From assembly GCA_916048055.1 (NCBI GenBank), contig CAJZHL010000004.1:682001-746000 (forward strand): a DNA stretch of 64,000 nucleotides, in the 5' to 3' direction. Source of the DNA: Pedinophyceae sp. YPF-701 (Eukaryota > Chlorophyta > Pedinophyceae). A program made the position numbers and the translations under genes. The first letter of the stretch is position 1; each line of letters opens with the position of its first letter. Shown here piece after piece: positions 32,877 through 41,972 of the stretch. The notes beneath the pieces are model-generated. The model ran no database searches. It was not told the origin of the DNA and was given only the letters and a program-made list of their open reading frames with translations.

Positions 32877-33838
32877 GGCAGCCGAGGTTTCGACGCCGCC
32901 CTGCGCGGGAGCGGGCGAGTGGGCGCGGAGTGGGCGAAAAGCTGGTACGACGTCTGTTATCAAGGTCGGTACGGCCACAGCGCGGTGAGGGGGGTGCGGT
33001 GATGCCGGCGCGCGGCGGCGGGCGGCTGGGTGGGCATGGGAGGCTGCCGTGCGGCGCGTGAGATCCGAGTTGCGCGGCCAGCCGCGAGGTCAGGGGCAGA
33101 GCGGCTCCAGTGACAGTGCTGGCTCCCGCGCGCCGCGGACCGGCCGCGGTGTGCGTCGCGGCGTGCGTGGTGAGTGGGTGGAATTCGAGGGAGCGGCCTG
33201 CCGCGCGGGGGCGTCATGGCGAGCGCGGCTCGGGGGGGGGCACCAAGGCACGAGCGGCAATCGATTCACTCACCGCTACGCCGGTGCTGCGTCCCCCGTC
33301 ACACTCCGTGGCCATTTTCTCGCTCACTGTCTGACGAGTACGGCGTTGAGCCGGGCGCGTGGCCTCGCGCCGCCTCCTACGATACCGGGCTCGGGCGCAC
33401 CGGTAGACGACGTGCGAAAAGGGCCGAAGGCCGCGCGTGTGGTTCGAACAGGCGTGTTCGGCGTATCTCTCGCTCTTTGCTTTCGGAAACTGCAAACGAT
33501 TGTGCCGACATACGCCCCCGCGCCGGCCCCTAGAGCCGCGCCCGCCCCGGTCTGACTTTAAGTCACTTACCAGTCCGCCCTACCTGCCCGACACTGGACC
33601 ACCGCGGCCGCGTCGCACGCGGCGCTCCGCGGCGCTCCGCGCGCGCCCCGGCCCGCGAGCCGCCGCCGTCGTACATCATATGCACGTAGGAGGCGGCGAG
33701 CTCGTTCGGCTCATAACGTCCCAAAGGGGTAATTGAACACTCGCGGTGACATCATGAAAGGCACCTGCGCGAGGGTGAAGAATGAACCGCGCACGCGGTG
33801 CAGCAGCGCGTCGCGCGGTCACACGCGGGCCGCGCGCG
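32877..33838. other. Intergenic region between two minus-strand genes
   Basis: These 962 bases lie between the start of the methyltransferase and the stop of CTR9. They include a relative of the AATTGA motif at 33724-33741. I see no gene. The right part serves as CTR9 3' end and the left part as methyltransferase promoter by position. Confidence 0.35.
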
Positions 33839-36800
33839 CTACTCGTCGTCCGAGTCGACCAGCGCACGCGGGCGCTTCGCCTCGGGGCCGGCCGCATCCT
33901 CGCCTGCTGCGTCAGCGGGCGCGGACGGCGGGCTCGCCGAGCGCTCGCGCTTGCGCCCCGCCGCCGCGTCCGCATCCTCGGTGTCCGCGCCGCCAGCGGC
34001 CTCGGCGGCCTCGGCGGCCTCGGCGCTCGCGCCGCCAGCGCCGTTCGCCGGCGCCCCCGCCTCGTCGTCGCTGTCGCTGTCCAGCCCCGCCCCCTGCGCG
34101 CAGACGCGTCACGCAGCCGGCACGACGTGAGGCTTCCCGCCGCAGCAGCAGCAGTACAGCAGCGCACGCGAGCCCACTGGGGGGGTGTTTTGTAAACAAC
34201 CCCCAACCTCACCTTGAGCAGCTCGCGCTCGTCGGCCGAGCCCCGCTCCGCCGCGTCGTCGCCGCCCCCGGCCTCCCCGTCGCCGTCGCCCTCCTCCGCG
34301 CGCTCCGTCGCCACCGTGCCGCGCGCCACCGCCGTCAGCCTCGCCCGCAGCACCTGCGTCCGCTTCTTCTCCTCCTCCGCGACCTTCAGCCGGCGGCCCT
34401 CCTCCGCCCGCCGCCGCGCCGCCTCCAGGGCCTTCTGCGCCGCCTCCATCGCCTGCTGCGCCTCCAGCTTCTCCCGCACCTTGGCCTGCACGGCCTGCCG
34501 CTGCGCCGCCCGCGCCGCAGCGCGCTCGCACAGCTTCTGCGCCTGCTCGAGGTTGCTCGAGCAGAACGCGATCTGGACCTGCAGCATCGAGCTCGAGAGA
34601 CGCGTCTGCGCTTTCTCGAGCTCCGCGAGCGCGCGGAGGTGCCGCAGTGCGACCGCCAGCGCCTCGGCGGCTCCGTTGACGAGCCGGACTTCGTCGCCGT
34701 GCGGGAGCTTGTCGGCCGCGGCGTCCTGCAGGACGGCCATCGCGCCGTGCTGCAGCTCGTACGCCGCGTTGTACCGCAGCGTGTGGTTGGTGGGGTCCAC
34801 GTGCAGCGCGCGCGCCAGCACCACGCGCGCCTCGCTGCCGCGGCCGGCGTCGTGCAGGGCGCGCGCGAGGAACAGCATCACGCGCGTGTCGCCGTTCTTG
34901 TAAAACTTCCGCAGCGCCGTGCGGTACAGCTTGACCGCCGTGAGCGCGTCGCCCATCGCCAGGTGGCACGTCCCCAGCGACACCAGCGCCTCCGGCAGCG
35001 CCGGCGACCCTGGCACGCTCGCGGCGTCGACCACGCGGCCAAGCACGTCCGCGGCCTCCTTGAAGCCGCCCCGCATCATCAACGCCATCCCCATCCCGGC
35101 CGCGGCCACCAGGTTGCCGCTGCCCTCCGGGTGCGACAGCACCTTCTCGTAGCAAGTGGCCGCTGTCCTCGCGTACTCGGCGCGCTTCCTGTCGTCGAGC
35201 TTGGTGAGGATCGGCGGGCACGCCGCGACGTTGATCGCGCCCTTCATGCACGTCATGTACTGGTCCTGTGCTGAAACGCCCCCCGGGGTCTTTTTCTTCA
35301 GAACCGCGTCGACGCACTCCTTCGCAGGTGAGTGCTTGGCGTCCTCGAGCAGCAGCAGCGCGCGCATCCCGAGCACGTCCACGTCGTCCTTGCAGTGCGC
35401 GTCCGCGGCGGCAAGGCGCTCCAGCGCCCCTGCGTGGTCGCCCGAGGCGCGCGCGATCGACGCCAGCCGCACGTAGCACTCCGCCATGCCCGGCACGCCG
35501 GCCAGGATTTCCTCGTACCCGCGCCGCGCGTCCGCATAGCGCCCCTCCGCCTCGCACAGCCGCGCATCGTTGAACGACAGCGTCACCTGCACCGCCGCAG
35601 GCGCCCCGCCCCCGGCCGCCTCCAGCTCCTCCCGCGCCGCCGTCAGCAGCGCGCGCGCGCCCTCGAGGTCCTCGCCCAGGTGCATCCGCAGCACGGCCGC
35701 GTTGTTGAACAGCCGCCACAGCGCCGGGGACTCCCCGCCCGCCGCACGGCCCTGCGGGTCCCCCACGGCGGCAAGCCCGGGGCGGTGCCGCGCGACAGCC
35801 TCGTCGAGGACGGCGCGCGCGCGGGTCAGATCCGTCGCGGCGAGCAGCTCCGCGATGACCTCGAGCGACCGCGTCGAGGCCACGCGCGCGAGCGGCACCT
35901 TGTGCACGTGTGCCGCCAGGGAAACAAGCTGGGCGGGCGTGGCCGCGGGGCACAGGCGGCCGGCGATGGCGAGGACGTCGGGGTCCGCGGGGGAGACGGA
36001 GAGCGCGCGGTCGAGCTCGACGACCGCGTTGTGCGTGTCGGTCGCCTGCCGGGAGGACAGAAAGAGCTGACTCAGCCCCAAGTGGGGGAGCGCCGCCCGC
36101 GCCCCGCGCGGCCCCGCGGCCTGCCGGTACGCCTGCATCGCCTGCTGCCGCATCATCACGGCCTTCCTGCTGTCCGGCTCCTGGCTCGCCAGCGCGTGCC
36201 GCGACCGCCCAACAACGCACTGCGCTTCCGCCTGCACGTCCCCCGCCAGCGCGCCCGCGGACGCCTCCGCGAGCGCCGCGGCGCGCTCGTACTGTTCGCG
36301 CACGAGCGCCTGGCACGACAGGAGGTACAGCGCGCCCGGGTGCGCTGGCCGGCACTTAAGCGCTTGCACGGTGTGTGACAGGCCAGTGGTGAGGTGCCGC
36401 TCGGCGTCCGCGGGCCGCTCGGCGGCCGTGGCGTCCGCGGCGGCGTTGAGGTCCATGGTCGCGAGCGCCACGTGGGCGTCGGCGCTCGCGGGGTCGAGGT
36501 CGAGGGTTCTCAGGAAGGCGGCGCGCGCCGAGTCGAGATTTCCCAACTTGAAGTGGCACGCTCCGATCGCGAGGCGGACGAAGGGCGGGCTCGAGGGGCA
36601 CTGCTTCAGCGCGGCCGCGAAGTGCCGCAGCGCGTCGCCCCATTTCTTCTGCGGCGCGGAACATGGGCGACAGAAACATGGGCGACAGAAAGCGCGAAAT
36701 GACTGTTCTTTCGCACGTGGAACGATCGCGTCGCTGCCGGCACACTTCGCGGCCAGAGCCGCACAGCGGTGGTCACCGCACGCAGACGCAGCCTCCGCGA

Positions 36801-37801
36801 CCCCGGCGCTCGGCCAGCGCACGCGGCCGCGAGGCTGGTGCAATGTACCAGCGACAATGGCCGGCGGGCGAGGGCGGATTTGTCGGCGACGCGGACGGCC
36901 GCCCGGGGACAGCATAGCGGGCCTTGGGGCGCGGTTCGGGGACGTTTCGGCGCAGGGTGGCGCGCCTGTGCGTAGCTGCAGATGCCAAGTCCTACGTGCG
37001 GCGCGACGTTCTTCTCGCCGGCGTTCTTGAGATTCGCGGCGCGCCTGAAGTGCGTCTCCGCTCGGTCGTACTTGGGCGCGGGCCGCCGGAGCTCGAGCAG
37101 GCCGCGGCCCACGTAAGGCAGCTGTTCCTGGGGTCCAGCCAGGAGGGCCGACTGCAGCGGCGGGCAGGGGAGGACGCAGTGAGGCGGAAAGGCGGCGTAG
37201 AGTGTAGCGTGGGTGCGTAGGAGATCGTGGGGCGCCCGTGCTGCCGAGATAGCTGCGTGGGCAGCGAGCGCGCGCGTGAAATGGCCGAGGACGTCGACTG
37301 TGGCCGAAATCCACGCGATGTCGCGGCTTGACAGGTGTCAACGGGGCTGCCCGGCTGGTACGCTGCGTGATCATGCGTTTGAGGCGGAGAACCGACCTTC
37401 AGACTGTCCTCCGCGGCCTTGAAGAGGGCTCCCTGCTCGGCGCTGCTGAGGCCCGGGTCGCCCGCTTGCGTCACGCAGTGCTCCGCGATGGCGCAGTGCA
37501 TGAACACCTCCACAACTGTGGCCTCTTCGAGTGTGAACGATTGCTGGAAGACCTCCAGGTTCTCCACAAACACCTTGGAGAGCTTGGCGAACTCGTCTCC
37601 GCGCCCCTCCGCCGCATACGCCCGCACAGCGTCGACCCAGACCTGCGGCGGCGCCTCCAGTCGCCCCAGTATACTCGTGAAGTTCTCCGCGTTCGGCATC
37701 TCCGCCGCCAGCACCTCGAGCACCTCGCTCACGGCCCCGTTCTCATCCCGCGCTACGGGCACCAGCACCGCCCCCGACGGCGCGGCCCCTTGGCCCGACA
37801 T
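33839..37801 (-). CDS. CTR9: CTR9, TPR subunit of the PAF1 transcription complex
   Basis: Scaffold subunit of the nuclear PAF1 complex, which couples RNA polymerase II elongation to histone modification. Exons 37801-37397, 37151-36966, 36648-34213 and 34093-33839 join in phase to 1093 residues, the usual length. Tandem tetratricopeptide repeats run through most of the protein, including QKKWGDALRHFAAALKQCP, PPFVRLAIGACHFKLGNLDSA, HPGALYLLSC and LPEALVSLGTCHLAMGD. After them comes a long charged helix (AQRQAVQAKVREKLEAQQAMEA) and an acidic, Ser/Asp-rich tail with a KRER basic patch, ending ALVDSDDE, as in other CTR9 proteins. Intron 2 (36965-36649) joins SYAQ to KKWGDAL only if the donor is CAG|GCGCGC, so it is a likely GC-AG intron. 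Intron 3 begins GTGAGG. The first ATG of the exon is at 37813, but MSGQ at 37801 is an equally good start. Confidence 0.92.
36661..36690. repeat. 15-base tandem repeat, two copies, at intron edge in CTR9
   Basis: ACATGGGCGACAGAA occurs twice head to tail, 13 bases inside intron 2 from the acceptor side. It may reflect replication slippage. Confidence 0.85.
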
Positions 37802-38495
37802 CGCGCCCAGCACGCAGCTGCAGCGATTCCTCCACGCCGCCGCAGCGCCCCCACCGCCTCACGCGCCGCCGTTCCCTCCCCTAAAGCCCACGATTGCGCT
37901 CTCCCGCAACCACCGGGCCCTGATCGCCGCCGAATTCGCGCGCAGACTGTCACTTCGAAGGTGGGAACTTCGCTTCCTTTCTGCGGCACGCGCGCTATGT
38001 GCTCCGGCGCGTAGCCAGCTGAGCGGCTCAGAGCCGGGCTGACACTGGCTGCGCGCTGACGGCGGTGAGCTGACTCGGGTGGCGGGGGGGGCGGCCCTCG
38101 CCGCGCGCGATCCGTCCTGCCAGAGGTGACTCGGCTCGCGTAGGCGGTCAGGCGCTCGCGAAGCTAAGGCCGATGGAGACACCGTCGAACAGTCACACAC
38201 AAATATGGTTGTTGAAGGACAACTGTGCGTCGGACCTCACAGCGAGCTCGCAGCGGGGCCAGCCCCCTCCGCCCCGTCCGCGATGCGCAACGCGTCGCTC
38301 GTCGCCGCACACGGGCACGTGGGCCGCCTGCAACGCCCTGTGAGTGCAGTGTGATCAAGACATGGCCGCGCTCTCAGCGGGCGTGTACTCAGCGCGGGCA
38401 CTCGATCCATGGCCAGCGCGGCGCGCGAGCGACGCAGTGAACGCACCTCCACCGCATGAGTTGTTTTTGACGAACATGATGGTGTTGCAGTGCAA
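37802..38495. other. Intergenic region upstream of CTR9
   Basis: These 694 bases contain the CTR9 promoter by position and the 3' end of the minus-strand gene at 38496. No element or gene is recognised. Confidence 0.3.
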
Positions 38496-39083
38496 CTACT
38501 CGTCTATGGCCCCGGCCGTGAACGGCTCCTTGATGTTCGTCGCGACGACGAACCCTGTCCAGTTCTCGGTGAGCTGAGCGCACTTGTCCCTGTCGCTGCC
38601 CTGCGCCCAGTGTCCTTCGGGCTCGCACTTGAACCGCCACCCTCCCGTGTTGACAGTGTCGTACTCGACGGACGCGCCGTCCTTCTCGATCCGGAAGTAG
38701 CGGGCCCGGCTCAGCGTGACCTCGACGCGGTCCGCGGAGTCCACGTACACGTTGACGTCAGGCGTCTGCAGCACCTCGCCGGGCTGATGCACAACGAAGC
38801 GAACCTTCCTCGCGCACCCGCCCCCGGCCCGCTTCACGTACTCCCCGACGTGCATCTCGCTCTCGGCGTAGTGGTAGTACTGGAACGCCGCTCCGTTCTC
38901 GACGTACACGCTGAATTCGACGAGGGGCTCCTCTCCGGAAGAGGAGGTAGGAAACCCGGAGGCTTCCTCGGCCGAGGGCTCAGCGGCCCGCTCGGCGCTT
39001 GGTTGCTCCGGAGGGAATTTGCGAGGGGGCTTTCCGCCGGTCGACTTCCTCGCGGTGCTCTTCGTTCCCACGGGTCTCGGCAT
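38496..39083 (-). CDS. Histone H3 tail-like N-terminus fused to an unknown beta-rich domain, 195 aa
   Basis: Intronless gene of 196 codons. Residues 7-22 align with histone H3 residues 3-18, with 14 of 16 positions identical: the string TARKSTGGK (H3 6-14) is exact and is followed by PPRK against H3 APRK. The equivalents of K4, K9, S10, K14 and K18 are all present, K9 being Lys13 here. After the tail comes a Glu/Pro/Ser-rich linker to about residue 50, then a 145-residue domain with alternating beta-like strands (VEFSVYVENGAAFQYYHY, KVRFVVHQPGEVLQT, VEVTLSRARYFRIEKDG) and a strongly conserved GGWRFKCEPEGHW block. This is not a histone fold; there is no alpha-N, alpha-1 or alpha-2 histone sequence. 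I do not recognise the domain. The start at 39083 puts the tail at the extreme N-terminus. A tandem paralogue lies directly upstream. Role unknown; possible mimic of the H3 tail for readers or modifying enzymes. Confidence 0.85.
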   Translation of the reverse strand: MPRPVGTKSTARKSTGGKPPRKFPPEQPSAERAAEPSAEEASGFPTSSSGEEPLVEFSVYVENGAAFQYYHYAESEMHVGEYVKRAGGGCARKVRFVVHQPGEVLQTPDVNVYVDSADRVEVTLSRARYFRIEKDGASVEYDTVNTGGWRFKCEPEGHWAQGSDRDKCAQLTENWTGFVVATNIKEPFTAGAIDE

Positions 39084-39687
39084 TGCACTTGCGGCGGTGT
39101 TTCTGCAGGCCGGCAGAACGACTCGCCGCCGTTCCTGGACAGCTGCAACGGGTCGCTCCGGACTTCGCCGACCGCGGGGATAGCACGAATGTTCGTCGCA
39201 ACACAGACAGACTCCTGGCGCGCGCGGGAGCAATTTGCTGACAGCTGCCGGGTTTGACACTTCTACCTCCAGCGGCATCCTTATACCCGCAAGCTACCCG
39301 TTCCCCTGACAGCACACAACGCCAAGATGCGCCGCAGCGCCACTTCAAGCAGTCGAGGGCCTCACAATCAGCCAGCACAAATGATTTCACTAGTCCCACT
39401 GCCCCGCTCACTCTCTTGCATGTCAGCGCAGCGACGCCACGGACCCCGACACGCGCGCTCCGGCTCTGATGCGCCCCGTCGCCGCCACGCTCGGCGCCGC
39501 GGGCACGCGGGCTCTCTGCAGCGCCCTGCGAGTTGCAACGTCATCACGCATGTCGTGCGATCGACGGCCGCCAGGGGCCGCGTGGCTGCCCTTGCACGCT
39601 CGCGGCGGGCGCGTTCTCGTCGTGGGCGATCCATGGTCGGTGAATCACGCGATTGACGCCACCAGAGTGCCGGCACATGGTAGACAT
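39084..39687. other. Spacer between the two tandem paralogues
   Basis: These 604 bases hold the presumed promoter of the H3-tail-like gene. No gene is seen. Confidence 0.35.
39279..39288 (-). promoter_or_regulatory. TATA-like element GGGTATAAGG
   Basis: The element lies about 195 bases upstream of the ATG of the H3-tail-like gene on the same strand. It is the clearest TATA-like string near a start in this window. It is only a motif match. Confidence 0.2.
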
Positions 39688-40257
39688 CTACTGCACGTCT
39701 ATAACTCCGGCCGTGAACGGCTCCTTGATGTTCGTCGCGATGTAGAAGCCCGTCTCTCTCTCCGTGATCTCAGCGCAGTTCTCGTCGCCGCTGCCCACCT
39801 CCCAGTGCCCTTCGGGCTCGCACTTGAACCGCCACCCTCCCGTGTCGACAGTGTCGTACTCCACGAACGCGCCGTCCTCCATTTGCAGGCGGAAGTAGCG
39901 GGCCCTGTTCAGCACGACCTCCACGCCGTCGTCGGAGTTCGCGTACACGGTCATGTCAGGCGTGTTCAGGACCTCCCCCTCCCCGAACACCGTGACGCGG
40001 ACCTTCCTCGCCTCCCCGCCGCCCTCCCGCCGCACGTACCCGCCGACGTGCATGTCGCTCGCGGCGTAGTGGTAGAACTTGAAGTCCGCTCCGTTCTCGA
40101 CGAAGAGGAAGAAGGTGATGAGGGGCTCCTCTTCCGGCGGGCTCTTGCCCCTTGGGGTCACCGACTTCCTTGCTAGCTGTGGCCTCGGGGGTGTGCCTCT
40201 TGCAGCCGCCGCGCTCTCCGCGCGCTTCCTCGCCTGCTGTGACGAGCTCCGTGCCAT
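39688..40257 (-). CDS. Tandem paralogue of the H3-tail-like protein, 189 aa
   Basis: Intronless gene of 190 codons, same strand and order as its neighbour at 38496. The C-terminal 145 residues align without gaps of note, roughly 60 percent identical by eye: EEPLITFFLFVENGADFKFYHY, MHVGGYVRR, RARYFRL, EYDTVDTGGWRFKCEPEGHW and the shared ending ATNIKEPFTAG. The tail differs: it begins MARSSSQQARKRAES and later has PRPQLARKSVTPRGK. These keep spaced pieces of the H3 tail (AR..Q.ARK like H3 1-9, and PR.QLA with ARKS like H3 16-28) but no continuous match. So either this is a decayed tail or the neighbour's tail has been refined. The domain is unknown. The start at 40257 is the ATG that keeps the basic tail N-terminal. 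Confidence 0.83.
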   Translation of the reverse strand: MARSSSQQARKRAESAAAARGTPPRPQLARKSVTPRGKSPPEEEPLITFFLFVENGADFKFYHYAASDMHVGGYVRREGGGEARKVRVTVFGEGEVLNTPDMTVYANSDDGVEVVLNRARYFRLQMEDGAFVEYDTVDTGGWRFKCEPEGHWEVGSGDENCAEITERETGFYIATNIKEPFTAGVIDVQ

Positions 40258-40627
40258 GGTTGATGGCACTGAAACACGATTCACGGACTTCACGTGCGCC
40301 GGCCGGGTCACCCATGCGCTGAGAGGCTCACCGCGGTCGCGCGTCCTTCCTCGACACAACGCTGACAGACTCGTCGCTCGCGAACGAGGAAATCGGTGCG
40401 AGGTTCGACGCGCCACCGTCTTCCTCTCGCAACGTGCCCGGCACTGCCGGTACTACCCCCGGGCCCCCGAATGCTGTTCTTTTTACTTCCACCCCCTCCC
40501 CCCCGCCGCCGCCTGACCCAGGCAGACGCGATGGGCACCCGCGACTCGGCACCGGACAGCGGGCGCCGGCAGCGGCAACGGACGCCACGGCTCGCGTAGT
40601 CGAGGACCTCACAATGCATGTCTCGGG

Positions 40628-41972
40628 TCAGCGCAACGAAGCCACCGACTCCGACACGCTCGCTCCGCCCCCGAGGCGCCCCGTCGCCGCCATGCTCGGC
40701 GCCGCCGTCGGCCCCAGCCCCCCCGCGCCCCCGAGCCCCGCACTCCGCAAGCCCCGCCCTCGCGCCGCGGTTCCTGCACTCCCCATCCCGTCCCGCCCCT
40801 CCGCCTCCCGCCTCCGGTGCTGCATACAGCGACGCCGTGCACCGCCGGTGAGCACCCGCGCCGCGCACGCGCGCGCGCCGGCCGCGCGACCTAGGCACGA
40901 GCGGCTGAGAATCAACCACGAAACCACGATCGCCGGCACACGCGGTTGTTTGGGGCGACCTTGCCTGCAAGCGCCACTGCTTGACGATCTCGCCCAGGTC
41001 CGAGACGAAGTTCCCGACGACCTCGAGCTGCTGCGCGGCGTCCGCGTCCGTCGGGTGGCTGATGTGCGACCGCGAGCGGCACCGGTGGAAGAGGTTGTCG
41101 GTGGCCATGCACACCTGCCCATGCTCGAGCGTCCTCTGGCACATGATCTGCATCGAGTAGTCCTTCTTCGCCTCGAGCGCCATGCACGCCCGCTCCCGCT
41201 GCTCCAGGTCCTTCTTCAGCGTCGATATCTCGTTGTTCAGATTCAATATCTCGTTGGTCTTGGCGCGCACGTACGCGTTCATGTCCAGCCGCAGCTGCTC
41301 GAGCTCCCGCGTGAGGCTCTGCGTCTGCTCCTTGAGGTCCTGGTTCGTCGCCTGGAGCGTCGCGTGCCGCGCGAGGAGGTCGGCTATTTCGTGGTACTCG
41401 TCCGCCGCCTCGAGGGTTTGTTCCAAAAAGGCCTGGTACTGCAACATGCGCGTCTCCAGCGCCGTGACCATCTCGTCCTTGGTCGCCCGGAGCTTGTCCA
41501 GGTCCTCCTGCAGCGCCGCGATCTCCCGCTCCTTCTCCTCGCGGACTTTCCGCTCGTCCTGCTCCCGGCGCAGCGCGCGCTGCCGCTTGGCGTCGTTCTC
41601 CTGGAGGAACTTCGAGAAGCGGATGAGCGACTCCTGGAGCTCAAGGTCCTTGCGCTTGAGGTCCTCCTCGCGCTTCTTGTACGCCTCCTCGCGCTGCGCG
41701 TGCTCCGCCTTTTGCAGCTCGAGCGTCTCGGCGACCTCAAACATCTGCCGGCGCTTCTCCATGAGGCGGGTGGCGGGCGAGACATGGTCCAGGACGAGGA
41801 ACTTGGGCCGCGTTGAGCCCGCCCTGCGCGGTGCGGGGCGGAGCGGGGCCGTGAGGGGACCGCGCGGGCACGGGCGCTGCGAAACAGCACATGGCGCGCC
41901 AACGGGCGCTTCTGCGGTGATTTCCGCCAGGATCAATTCGCTCAAGCGACAGAAAAGTCCCGGAAGTTTCAT
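40628..41972 (-). CDS. CCDC42/CFAP73-family ciliary coiled-coil protein
   Basis: Predicted axonemal coiled-coil protein of the DUF4200 family (CCDC42, CFAP73/MIA2). The signature block is clear: ATRLMEKRRQMFEVAETLEL, then KRKDLELQESLIRFSKFLQ and NDAKRQRALRREQ. Continuous heptads run to MNAYVRAKTNEILNLNNEI. The family's C-terminal motifs also appear: TLEHGQVCMATDNLFHRC and QQLEVVGNFVSDLGEIVKQW. Exon 1 ends at 40965; a GC donor (CAG|GCAAGG) splices in phase to 40819 and a 63-residue Gly/Ala-rich tail ending SVSESVASLR at 40628. A GT donor five bases further on is possible but gives a different tail. The true start is uncertain: the frame opens at 41972, but the family match begins near KFLVLDHVSPATRLM, and an upstream exon may exist. 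In Chlamydomonas the family member CFAP73 belongs to the MIA complex regulating inner arm dynein. Confidence 0.82.

Follow-up and report, generated by a model that had tools for sequence, protein, structure and literature searches.

The 64,000-nucleotide stretch of Pedinophyceae sp. YPF-701 analysed here (the window; contig CAJZHL010000004.1) carries two tandem genes, to date found nowhere else, each predicted to encode a segment like the N-terminal tail of histone H3, a linker and a C-terminal domain not assigned to any family. Their sequences suggest products that would serve as soluble substrates or competitors for the H3K9/K14 system, an explanation to which we give even chances. One of the two, referred to as the H3-tail protein, is likely a host-encoded mimic of the H3 tail and would act as a competitor or alternative substrate; the histone-modifying machinery could, as its sequence suggests, mistake it for a histone.

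The H3-tail gene

The H3-tail gene is located on the minus strand at 38496–39083 (ATG at 39083, stop at 38496) and encodes 195 amino acids followed by a stop, which agrees with the placement in the first-pass annotation. Residues 7–22 (TKSTARKSTGGKPPRK; 39018–39065, minus strand) are identical to residues 3–18 of H3 at 14 of 16 positions; this earlier claim, including the exact TARKSTGGK, was reproduced from the ORF translation. The H3 residues retained are T3, K4, T6, A7, R8, K9, S10, T11, G12, G13, K14, P16, R17 and K18, with K8 of the H3-tail protein equivalent to K4 of H3, K13 to K9, S14 to S10, K18 to K14, R21 to R17 and K22 to K18. A G9a/GLP-like mimic is recognised by ARK[S/T] at its target lysine, and the H3-tail protein has this motif within TARKSTGGK (residues 10–18). 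ARKS has been named as the motif of H3K9-type mimics (PMC10611923, in excerpt). The protein begins Met-Pro-Arg-Pro-Val-Gly ahead of the H3-like stretch, and residues 1–2 of H3 have no in-place match. The stretch is thus close to the N-terminus but, with six residues preceding it, does not occupy the same position as in H3, contrary to what had been proposed.

A Pro/Ser/Glu-rich linker (residues 23–50; 38934–39017, minus strand), whose DNA alignment with the paralogue is not significant, leads to the C-terminal domain (residues 51–195; 38499–38933, minus strand). The domain is common to the paralogue, is identical to it at 98 of 145 aligned positions and could not be assigned to a family. The earlier statement that there is no histone fold is borne out by Pfam, which has no histone match to the protein at E up to 1; searching the genome with full-length H3 gave 11 matches, among which the H3-tail protein is likewise not listed. 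Upstream of the gene is a 79-base block (39422–39500, minus strand), 87% identical to its counterpart upstream of the paralogue (40627–40705, minus strand); each block is a possible promoter or 5' UTR. A candidate 3' splice site CAG (39103–39105, minus strand), judged from sequence, is located 19 bases ahead of the ATG.

Strength of the match to H3

A phmmer search of the PDB aligned residues 7–22 to H3 peptides and to H3 (E 0.03 to 0.21 in the best 60 of 129 rows), the E values being weak under ordinary scoring because the H3-like stretch is short. Measured by identity, the best other 16-mer in the six frames of the window (open stretches of at least 40 residues, 114,384 residues) matches H3 3–18 at 7 of 16 positions, 20 shuffled H3 tails in the same window search reach 7 or 8 of 16 at most, and shuffling residues 1–50 of the protein 20,000 times with the composition preserved gives a maximum of 9/16. 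The ARKSTGGK DNA pattern occurs at five places in the genome (27.9 Mb, 32 contigs), namely the four canonical H3 genes and the H3-tail gene, and at none in the reversed control. With H3 1–30 as the query against the genome (E up to 10), there were at least six matches: four canonical H3 genes, one H3 variant and the H3-tail gene (E 0.047), the sole non-histone among the matches listed.

A degenerate TARKSTGGK pattern, in which the serine codon position also lets in other residues, was found in 6 stretches of viral contigs and 18 of prokaryote genomes. Seven of these 24 loci were taken as H3. Six match at 16/16: in five of them the ORF also contains a histone-fold motif, and the sixth extends past the end of its contig. 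The seventh, L082, reads MARTKQTARKSTGGK and then continues into unrelated sequence; its match to H3 stops after GGK (13/16), and we interpret it as an exon end of an H3 gene. The remaining 17, taken as non-histone and including one cut by its contig start (L078), reach at most 11/16 against H3 3–18. Full H3 tails are carried by L079, L083, L086, L087, L093 and L094 of the prokaryote collection, which are contigs of bacterial bins; this is most likely eukaryotic contamination of the bins.

Overall, the H3 match is modest by standard scoring and, by identity, far outside the nulls, which do not exactly correct for choice by a reader of many windows. The reading of the protein as an H3 mimic is favoured because its 14/16 identity is far above both the shuffles and the non-histone loci, and because the N-terminus of the paralogue is itself H3-like, specific for H3 and second in rank.

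The tandem paralogue

The paralogue, absent from the first-pass annotation, is located directly upstream of the H3-tail gene (39688–40257, minus strand) and encodes 189 amino acids plus a stop. Its own H3-like N-terminus (residues 1–42, MARSSSQQARKR...PPRPQLARKS...; 40132–40257, minus strand) contains H3-like MAR, ARK and PRxQLAxK elements; its C-terminal domain (39691–40131, minus strand) is 68% identical to that of the H3-tail protein. A genome search with the C-terminal domain found the paralogue as the one other copy; a third match (E 2.4, 29% identity) was treated as noise.

In a MAFFT alignment the N-termini of the two proteins look unrelated. When segments starting at each Met in the six frames of the window (1134 Met in all, 1004 segments after dropping those of fewer than 10 residues) were scored against H3 1–30, each alignment being anchored at the Met, the H3-tail protein came first (79) and the paralogue second (55), with the third at 40. 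The two genes again rank first and second with H3 1–10 as the query, and the paralogue ranks sixth with H3 1–18. Among genome loci (237,637 bases, 1656 distinct Met segments of at least 20 residues, taken from earlier searches and so histone-rich), the order is canonical H3 (151), the H3 variant (129), the H3-tail protein (79), the paralogue (55), a divergent H3 variant (48) and others at 45 or below. When each N-terminus was shuffled 20,000 times, 23 shuffles equalled the score of the paralogue and none that of the H3-tail protein. Shuffling the H3 tail instead gave 32 of 20,000 as good as the paralogue, and 170 of 20,000 when H3 was shuffled behind MAR; without the first three residues of the paralogue, 187 of 20,000 shuffles were as good. 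A local alignment of the paralogue to H3 needs gaps and is equalled by 1% of 2000 shuffles. With the same scoring, neither protein stands out against the tails of H4, H2A or H2B, and the signal is H3-specific among the four core-histone tails. Both N-termini share Met-[Ala/Pro]-Arg and Ala-Arg-Lys; Pro-Arg-x-Gln-Leu-Ala-x-Lys is a further element of the paralogue. Within the window, M[AP]R...ARK, a pattern chosen after seeing the two gene starts, is confined to these starts.

As the tandem paralogue has its own H3-like N-terminus, coincidence is less likely and the H3-like N-terminus probably predates the duplication; the paralogue then appears to show an H3-like tail drifting. The same drift, in which the paralogue has lost exact residues but retained basic and ARK elements, would be explained if the N-terminus were a basic nuclear localisation signal of the histone type, with the H3 sequence kept for importins and not for chromatin enzymes; both paralogues have basic N-termini. 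A nuclear localisation signal requires basic residues and not the exact order of TARKSTGGK, and shuffles that keep the composition stay at or below the 9/16 given above. We therefore consider this explanation unlikely, although the signal in H3 is indeed read by a karyopherin, Kap123 (PMC5677370, in excerpt). A further scenario, which we hold to be quite unlikely, is an ancestral fusion of most of the H3 tail (approximately residues 1–28) to a new domain, after whose duplication the copies kept different parts, giving two dedicated soluble mimics that would tune the chromatin enzymes of the alga. The K9-S10-K14-K18 module would have stayed with one copy; its partner would have retained Ala1-Arg2 together with an ARK and with QLA-ARKS, a stretch resembling K23/K27.

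Start codon and coding signal

The last in-frame stop upstream of the H3-tail gene is at 39296. Two in-frame ATGs precede the domain, at 39278 and 39083, with no stop between them, and no further in-frame ATG lies between 39083 and the domain. That interval has 12 listed AG sites, and none of them is a CAG or TAG. All 11 intron ends viewed, which belong to genes for histones and LHC proteins, were positioned by eye with no RNA and are in part near-identical, have a CAG no more than 4 bases from the expected boundary. Should translation of the domain begin at an ATG, it would thus most simply include the tail. The paralogue does have CAGs between its own ATG and the domain, so the splice argument is good for the H3-tail gene only; in the frame of the paralogue, the ATG at 40257 is the sole ATG between a GTG at 40416 and the domain, and a candidate 3' splice site CAG (40269–40271, minus strand) is located 11 bases ahead of it. 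We favour 39083 as the start codon, from which translation would begin, because of the pattern of ATG and AG sites, the CAGs ahead of the ATGs and the low GC3 (0.58) of the upstream extension (39278 to 39084).

GC3 is 0.72 (36/50) in the first 50 codons of the H3-tail gene and 0.91 (132/145) in its domain (Fisher p 0.0017), where it is lower in the other two frames. The paralogue gives 0.74 (31/42) for the N-terminus and 0.93 (136/147) for the domain (Fisher p 0.0021). Seven other N-termini range from 0.78 to 1.00. The coding signal thus begins sharply at the domain in both genes, and the low GC3 ahead of it resembles non-coding DNA, which counts against a translated mimic. This is what would be seen if the tail were untranslated, as part of an intron or 5' UTR, and its likeness to H3 a coincidence picked from the many windows read, and the low value of the extension upstream of 39083 points the same way; open frames upstream would be long by chance at such a GC content. 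A fast-evolving segment could equally give such values, and we argue for it over non-coding DNA because both ATGs begin an H3-like reading. N-termini ranking first and second of 1004 are not expected of non-coding DNA. With the identity far above the null, and neither an in-frame ATG nor a CAG/TAG between 39083 and the domain of the H3-tail gene, we consider an untranslated tail distinctly improbable and retain the translated H3 mimic as the preferred reading.

Evolution of the tail

The H3-tail gene has the same codon as each of the four canonical H3 genes at 3 of 14 matching residues, and as the H3 variant at 5 of 13. As the amino acids match while the codons mostly differ, recent capture from an H3 gene, canonical or variant, is ruled out. 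The tail would then have arisen by convergence or by old descent, in the latter case under constraint on the protein. The 567-base 5' region, searched against the genome at E up to 1 with simple repeats and very common words skipped, matched nothing besides the 79-base block of the paralogue.

Tail and linker DNA of the two paralogues have no detectable homology (174 of 500 shuffles as good), while the whole 488-base interval is equalled by 2 of 200 shuffles. The domains are unsaturated: the same codon is used at 84 of the 98 identical residues against 61.6 expected at saturation, and the difference per codon position is 0.207, 0.193 and 0.221. Estimates of domain dN/dS disagree (about 0.80 by NG86, 0.71 by LWL85, 0.18 by YN00 and 0.27 by ML). 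Since the tail DNA does not align though the domains are unsaturated, the tail region has changed very fast, far more so than the stretches on either side, and such strong drift counts against the H3-mimic reading. Fast divergence and a dN/dS that would allow weak constraint on the domain also suit a tail that is translated, resembles H3 by accident and has no chromatin role, such as a plain linker or an organelle-targeting peptide, the latter commonly Ser/Thr/Arg-rich at the N-terminus. We give this little credence, as the match is exact at 14/16, the paralogue carries an H3-specific signal and the linker holds many acidic residues, in which a typical transit peptide is not rich.

The C-terminal domain

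The first-pass annotation described a beta-rich domain of 145 residues that could not be placed. It still has no place among known families, and its beta-rich character rests on low-confidence models only. Pfam gave one sub-threshold match for the H3-tail protein, DUF6727 (PF20495; E 0.061, 13.6 bits against a cut-off of 22.3), and none for the paralogue; DUF6727 has no match in the genome, but likewise none in 14 control genomes. PHROGs gave sub-threshold matches only (E 0.16–0.39), NCBIfam none, and a profile of the domain found nothing in the PDB better than E 0.4 and 0.9. A peptide pattern was fitted by 63 viral-contig and 92 prokaryote-genome stretches, none confirmed as a relative by tblastn; eukaryotes are outside the intended scope of both collections. 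A structure prediction, as the annotation had proposed, was made by AlphaFold with two sequences and gave a pLDDT of 35 for the full-length protein and 46 for the domain. The best Foldseek match to the low-confidence model has an E of 0.36. FKCEPEGHW and a second cysteine are kept in both copies, and FKCEPEGHWxxGS may resemble a copper site of cupredoxins.

Genome context

The genome encodes LHCII-type antenna proteins, which we read as those of a green alga. One ORF in the genome combines a SET domain (44.5 bits) with a Pre-SET that is borderline, scoring 31.5 bits at first and 29.0 on rescan (cut-off 29.1). Chromodomain matches are over the cut-off in 8 of 18 cases, one of them rechecked as an ORF. 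The SET/Pre-SET ORF and the chromodomains are candidate partners of the H3-tail protein.

The genome also holds several altered H3 genes. The H3 variant L007 (C5:102050-102427), 91% identical to canonical H3, has ARKSVGGK (T11 to V) and a changed 23–30 region. Two strongly divergent genes with rewritten tails, L008 (C8:273306-273647; MARTPKATPARRTGG...) and L009 (C29:252909-253262; MARNKRTPVKKRAHR...), are possible centromeric or special H3 variants. L019 (C10:651971-652222) and L020 (C29:450478-450729) are H3-like frames of 105 amino acids that encode the same protein on different contigs; where they match H3 the identity is 44%, and the frame stops before the usual C-terminus, by an intron or by truncation.

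The next gene downstream of the H3-tail gene (33676–37813, minus strand) encodes CTR9 of the Paf1 complex (the best PDB matches are CTR9, E 8e-50). The H3 mimic of influenza NS1 targets the Paf1 complex; the adjoining position of CTR9 may be coincidence. The gene upstream of the paralogue (40311–41972, minus strand) carries DUF4200 (E 2e-24), a coiled-coil family of ciliary proteins.

Proposed action of the H3-tail protein

We propose that the N-terminal segment of the pair is either related to the H3 tail or selected to resemble it. The near-intact H3 3–18 stretch would enter the substrate groove of enzymes acting on K9, S10, K14, R17 and K18 of H3, and once modified the protein would be bound by readers of those marks. 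Most likely the protein would serve the H3K9/K14 writer-reader system in soluble form, as an alternative substrate or as a competitor, and the C-terminal domain would set the place or the time of this action. We infer that the tail is disordered and that the protein is nuclear, is modified and acts as a competitor. Readers that need the free Ala1 of H3 are unlikely partners by analogy with Sgo1 and Survivin (PMC9253516, in excerpt), because six residues precede the H3-like stretch. Resemblance in a motif can mislead, as the nuclear histone-mimic role of SARS-CoV-2 ORF8 is disputed (PMC10833455, in excerpt).

If the proposal is correct, a 16-residue, near-exact and unmutated stretch of H3 on a non-histone protein, whose paralogue retains different H3-like elements, would approximate an H3 tail occurring free in nature. 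Were it modified and recognised as H3 is, the cell would possess a titratable competitor of its chromatin. Whether cells use soluble histone-tail decoys could then be tested directly in this alga, whose genome is small.

Comparison with known histone mimics

No algal cellular protein of this kind was found among the matches listed in the open-licence PMC literature, and we know of no cellular counterpart with an H3-tail stretch of such extent. The H3-tail protein has the tail sequence of histone H3 (14/16, H3 3–18) but not the histone fold that follows it in H3. The H3-like motif of G9a/GLP is short. Once methylated it is recognised by HP1, an interaction that is blocked when the residue after it is phosphorylated (PMC9768651, in excerpt). 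This motif is located inside the methyltransferase itself, whereas in the H3-tail protein the likeness covers 16 residues near the N-terminus of a protein with no SET match.

The first-pass annotation had described host-encoded H3-tail mimics as rare and not built like this, which is not quite right, as it overlooks the host proteins Sgo1 (PMC9253516) and EZHIP (PMC6513997), both sources being used in excerpt here and below. The N-terminal tail of shugoshin Sgo1 is H3-like and engages the pocket of Survivin that binds H3 (PMC9253516). The likeness of Sgo1 to H3 lies in its first four residues (Ala-Lys-Glu-Arg, compared with Ala-Arg-Thr-Lys in H3; PMC9253516), whereas the H3-tail protein carries H3 3–18, with K9/S10/K14, after six residues. 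An N-terminal Ala after Met removal, as in Sgo1, is not present in the H3-tail protein; the paralogue starts Met-Ala-Arg. EZHIP is a host H3K27M-like inhibitor of PRC2 (PMC6513997) that occurs in one lineage only, is duplicated and is under diversifying selection (PMC6513997; PMC12713659, likewise in excerpt). It mimics H3K27M, with the methionine in the active site, through its C-terminal part (PMC6513997), whereas the H3-tail protein mimics the K4–K18 stretch. No lysine is changed to methionine at K13 or K18 of the H3-tail protein, and because these lysines are kept it would be a substrate and not a K-to-M inhibitor. Influenza NS1 and other viral H3 mimics also carry an H3-like stretch in a non-histone protein (PMC5769502, in excerpt), but they are viral and the H3-tail protein is cellular. 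From its sequence, the H3-tail protein is best called a case of host-encoded histone mimicry, which would work like G9a/GLP, Sgo1 and EZHIP while lacking the features that define the H3, Sgo1 and EZHIP types.
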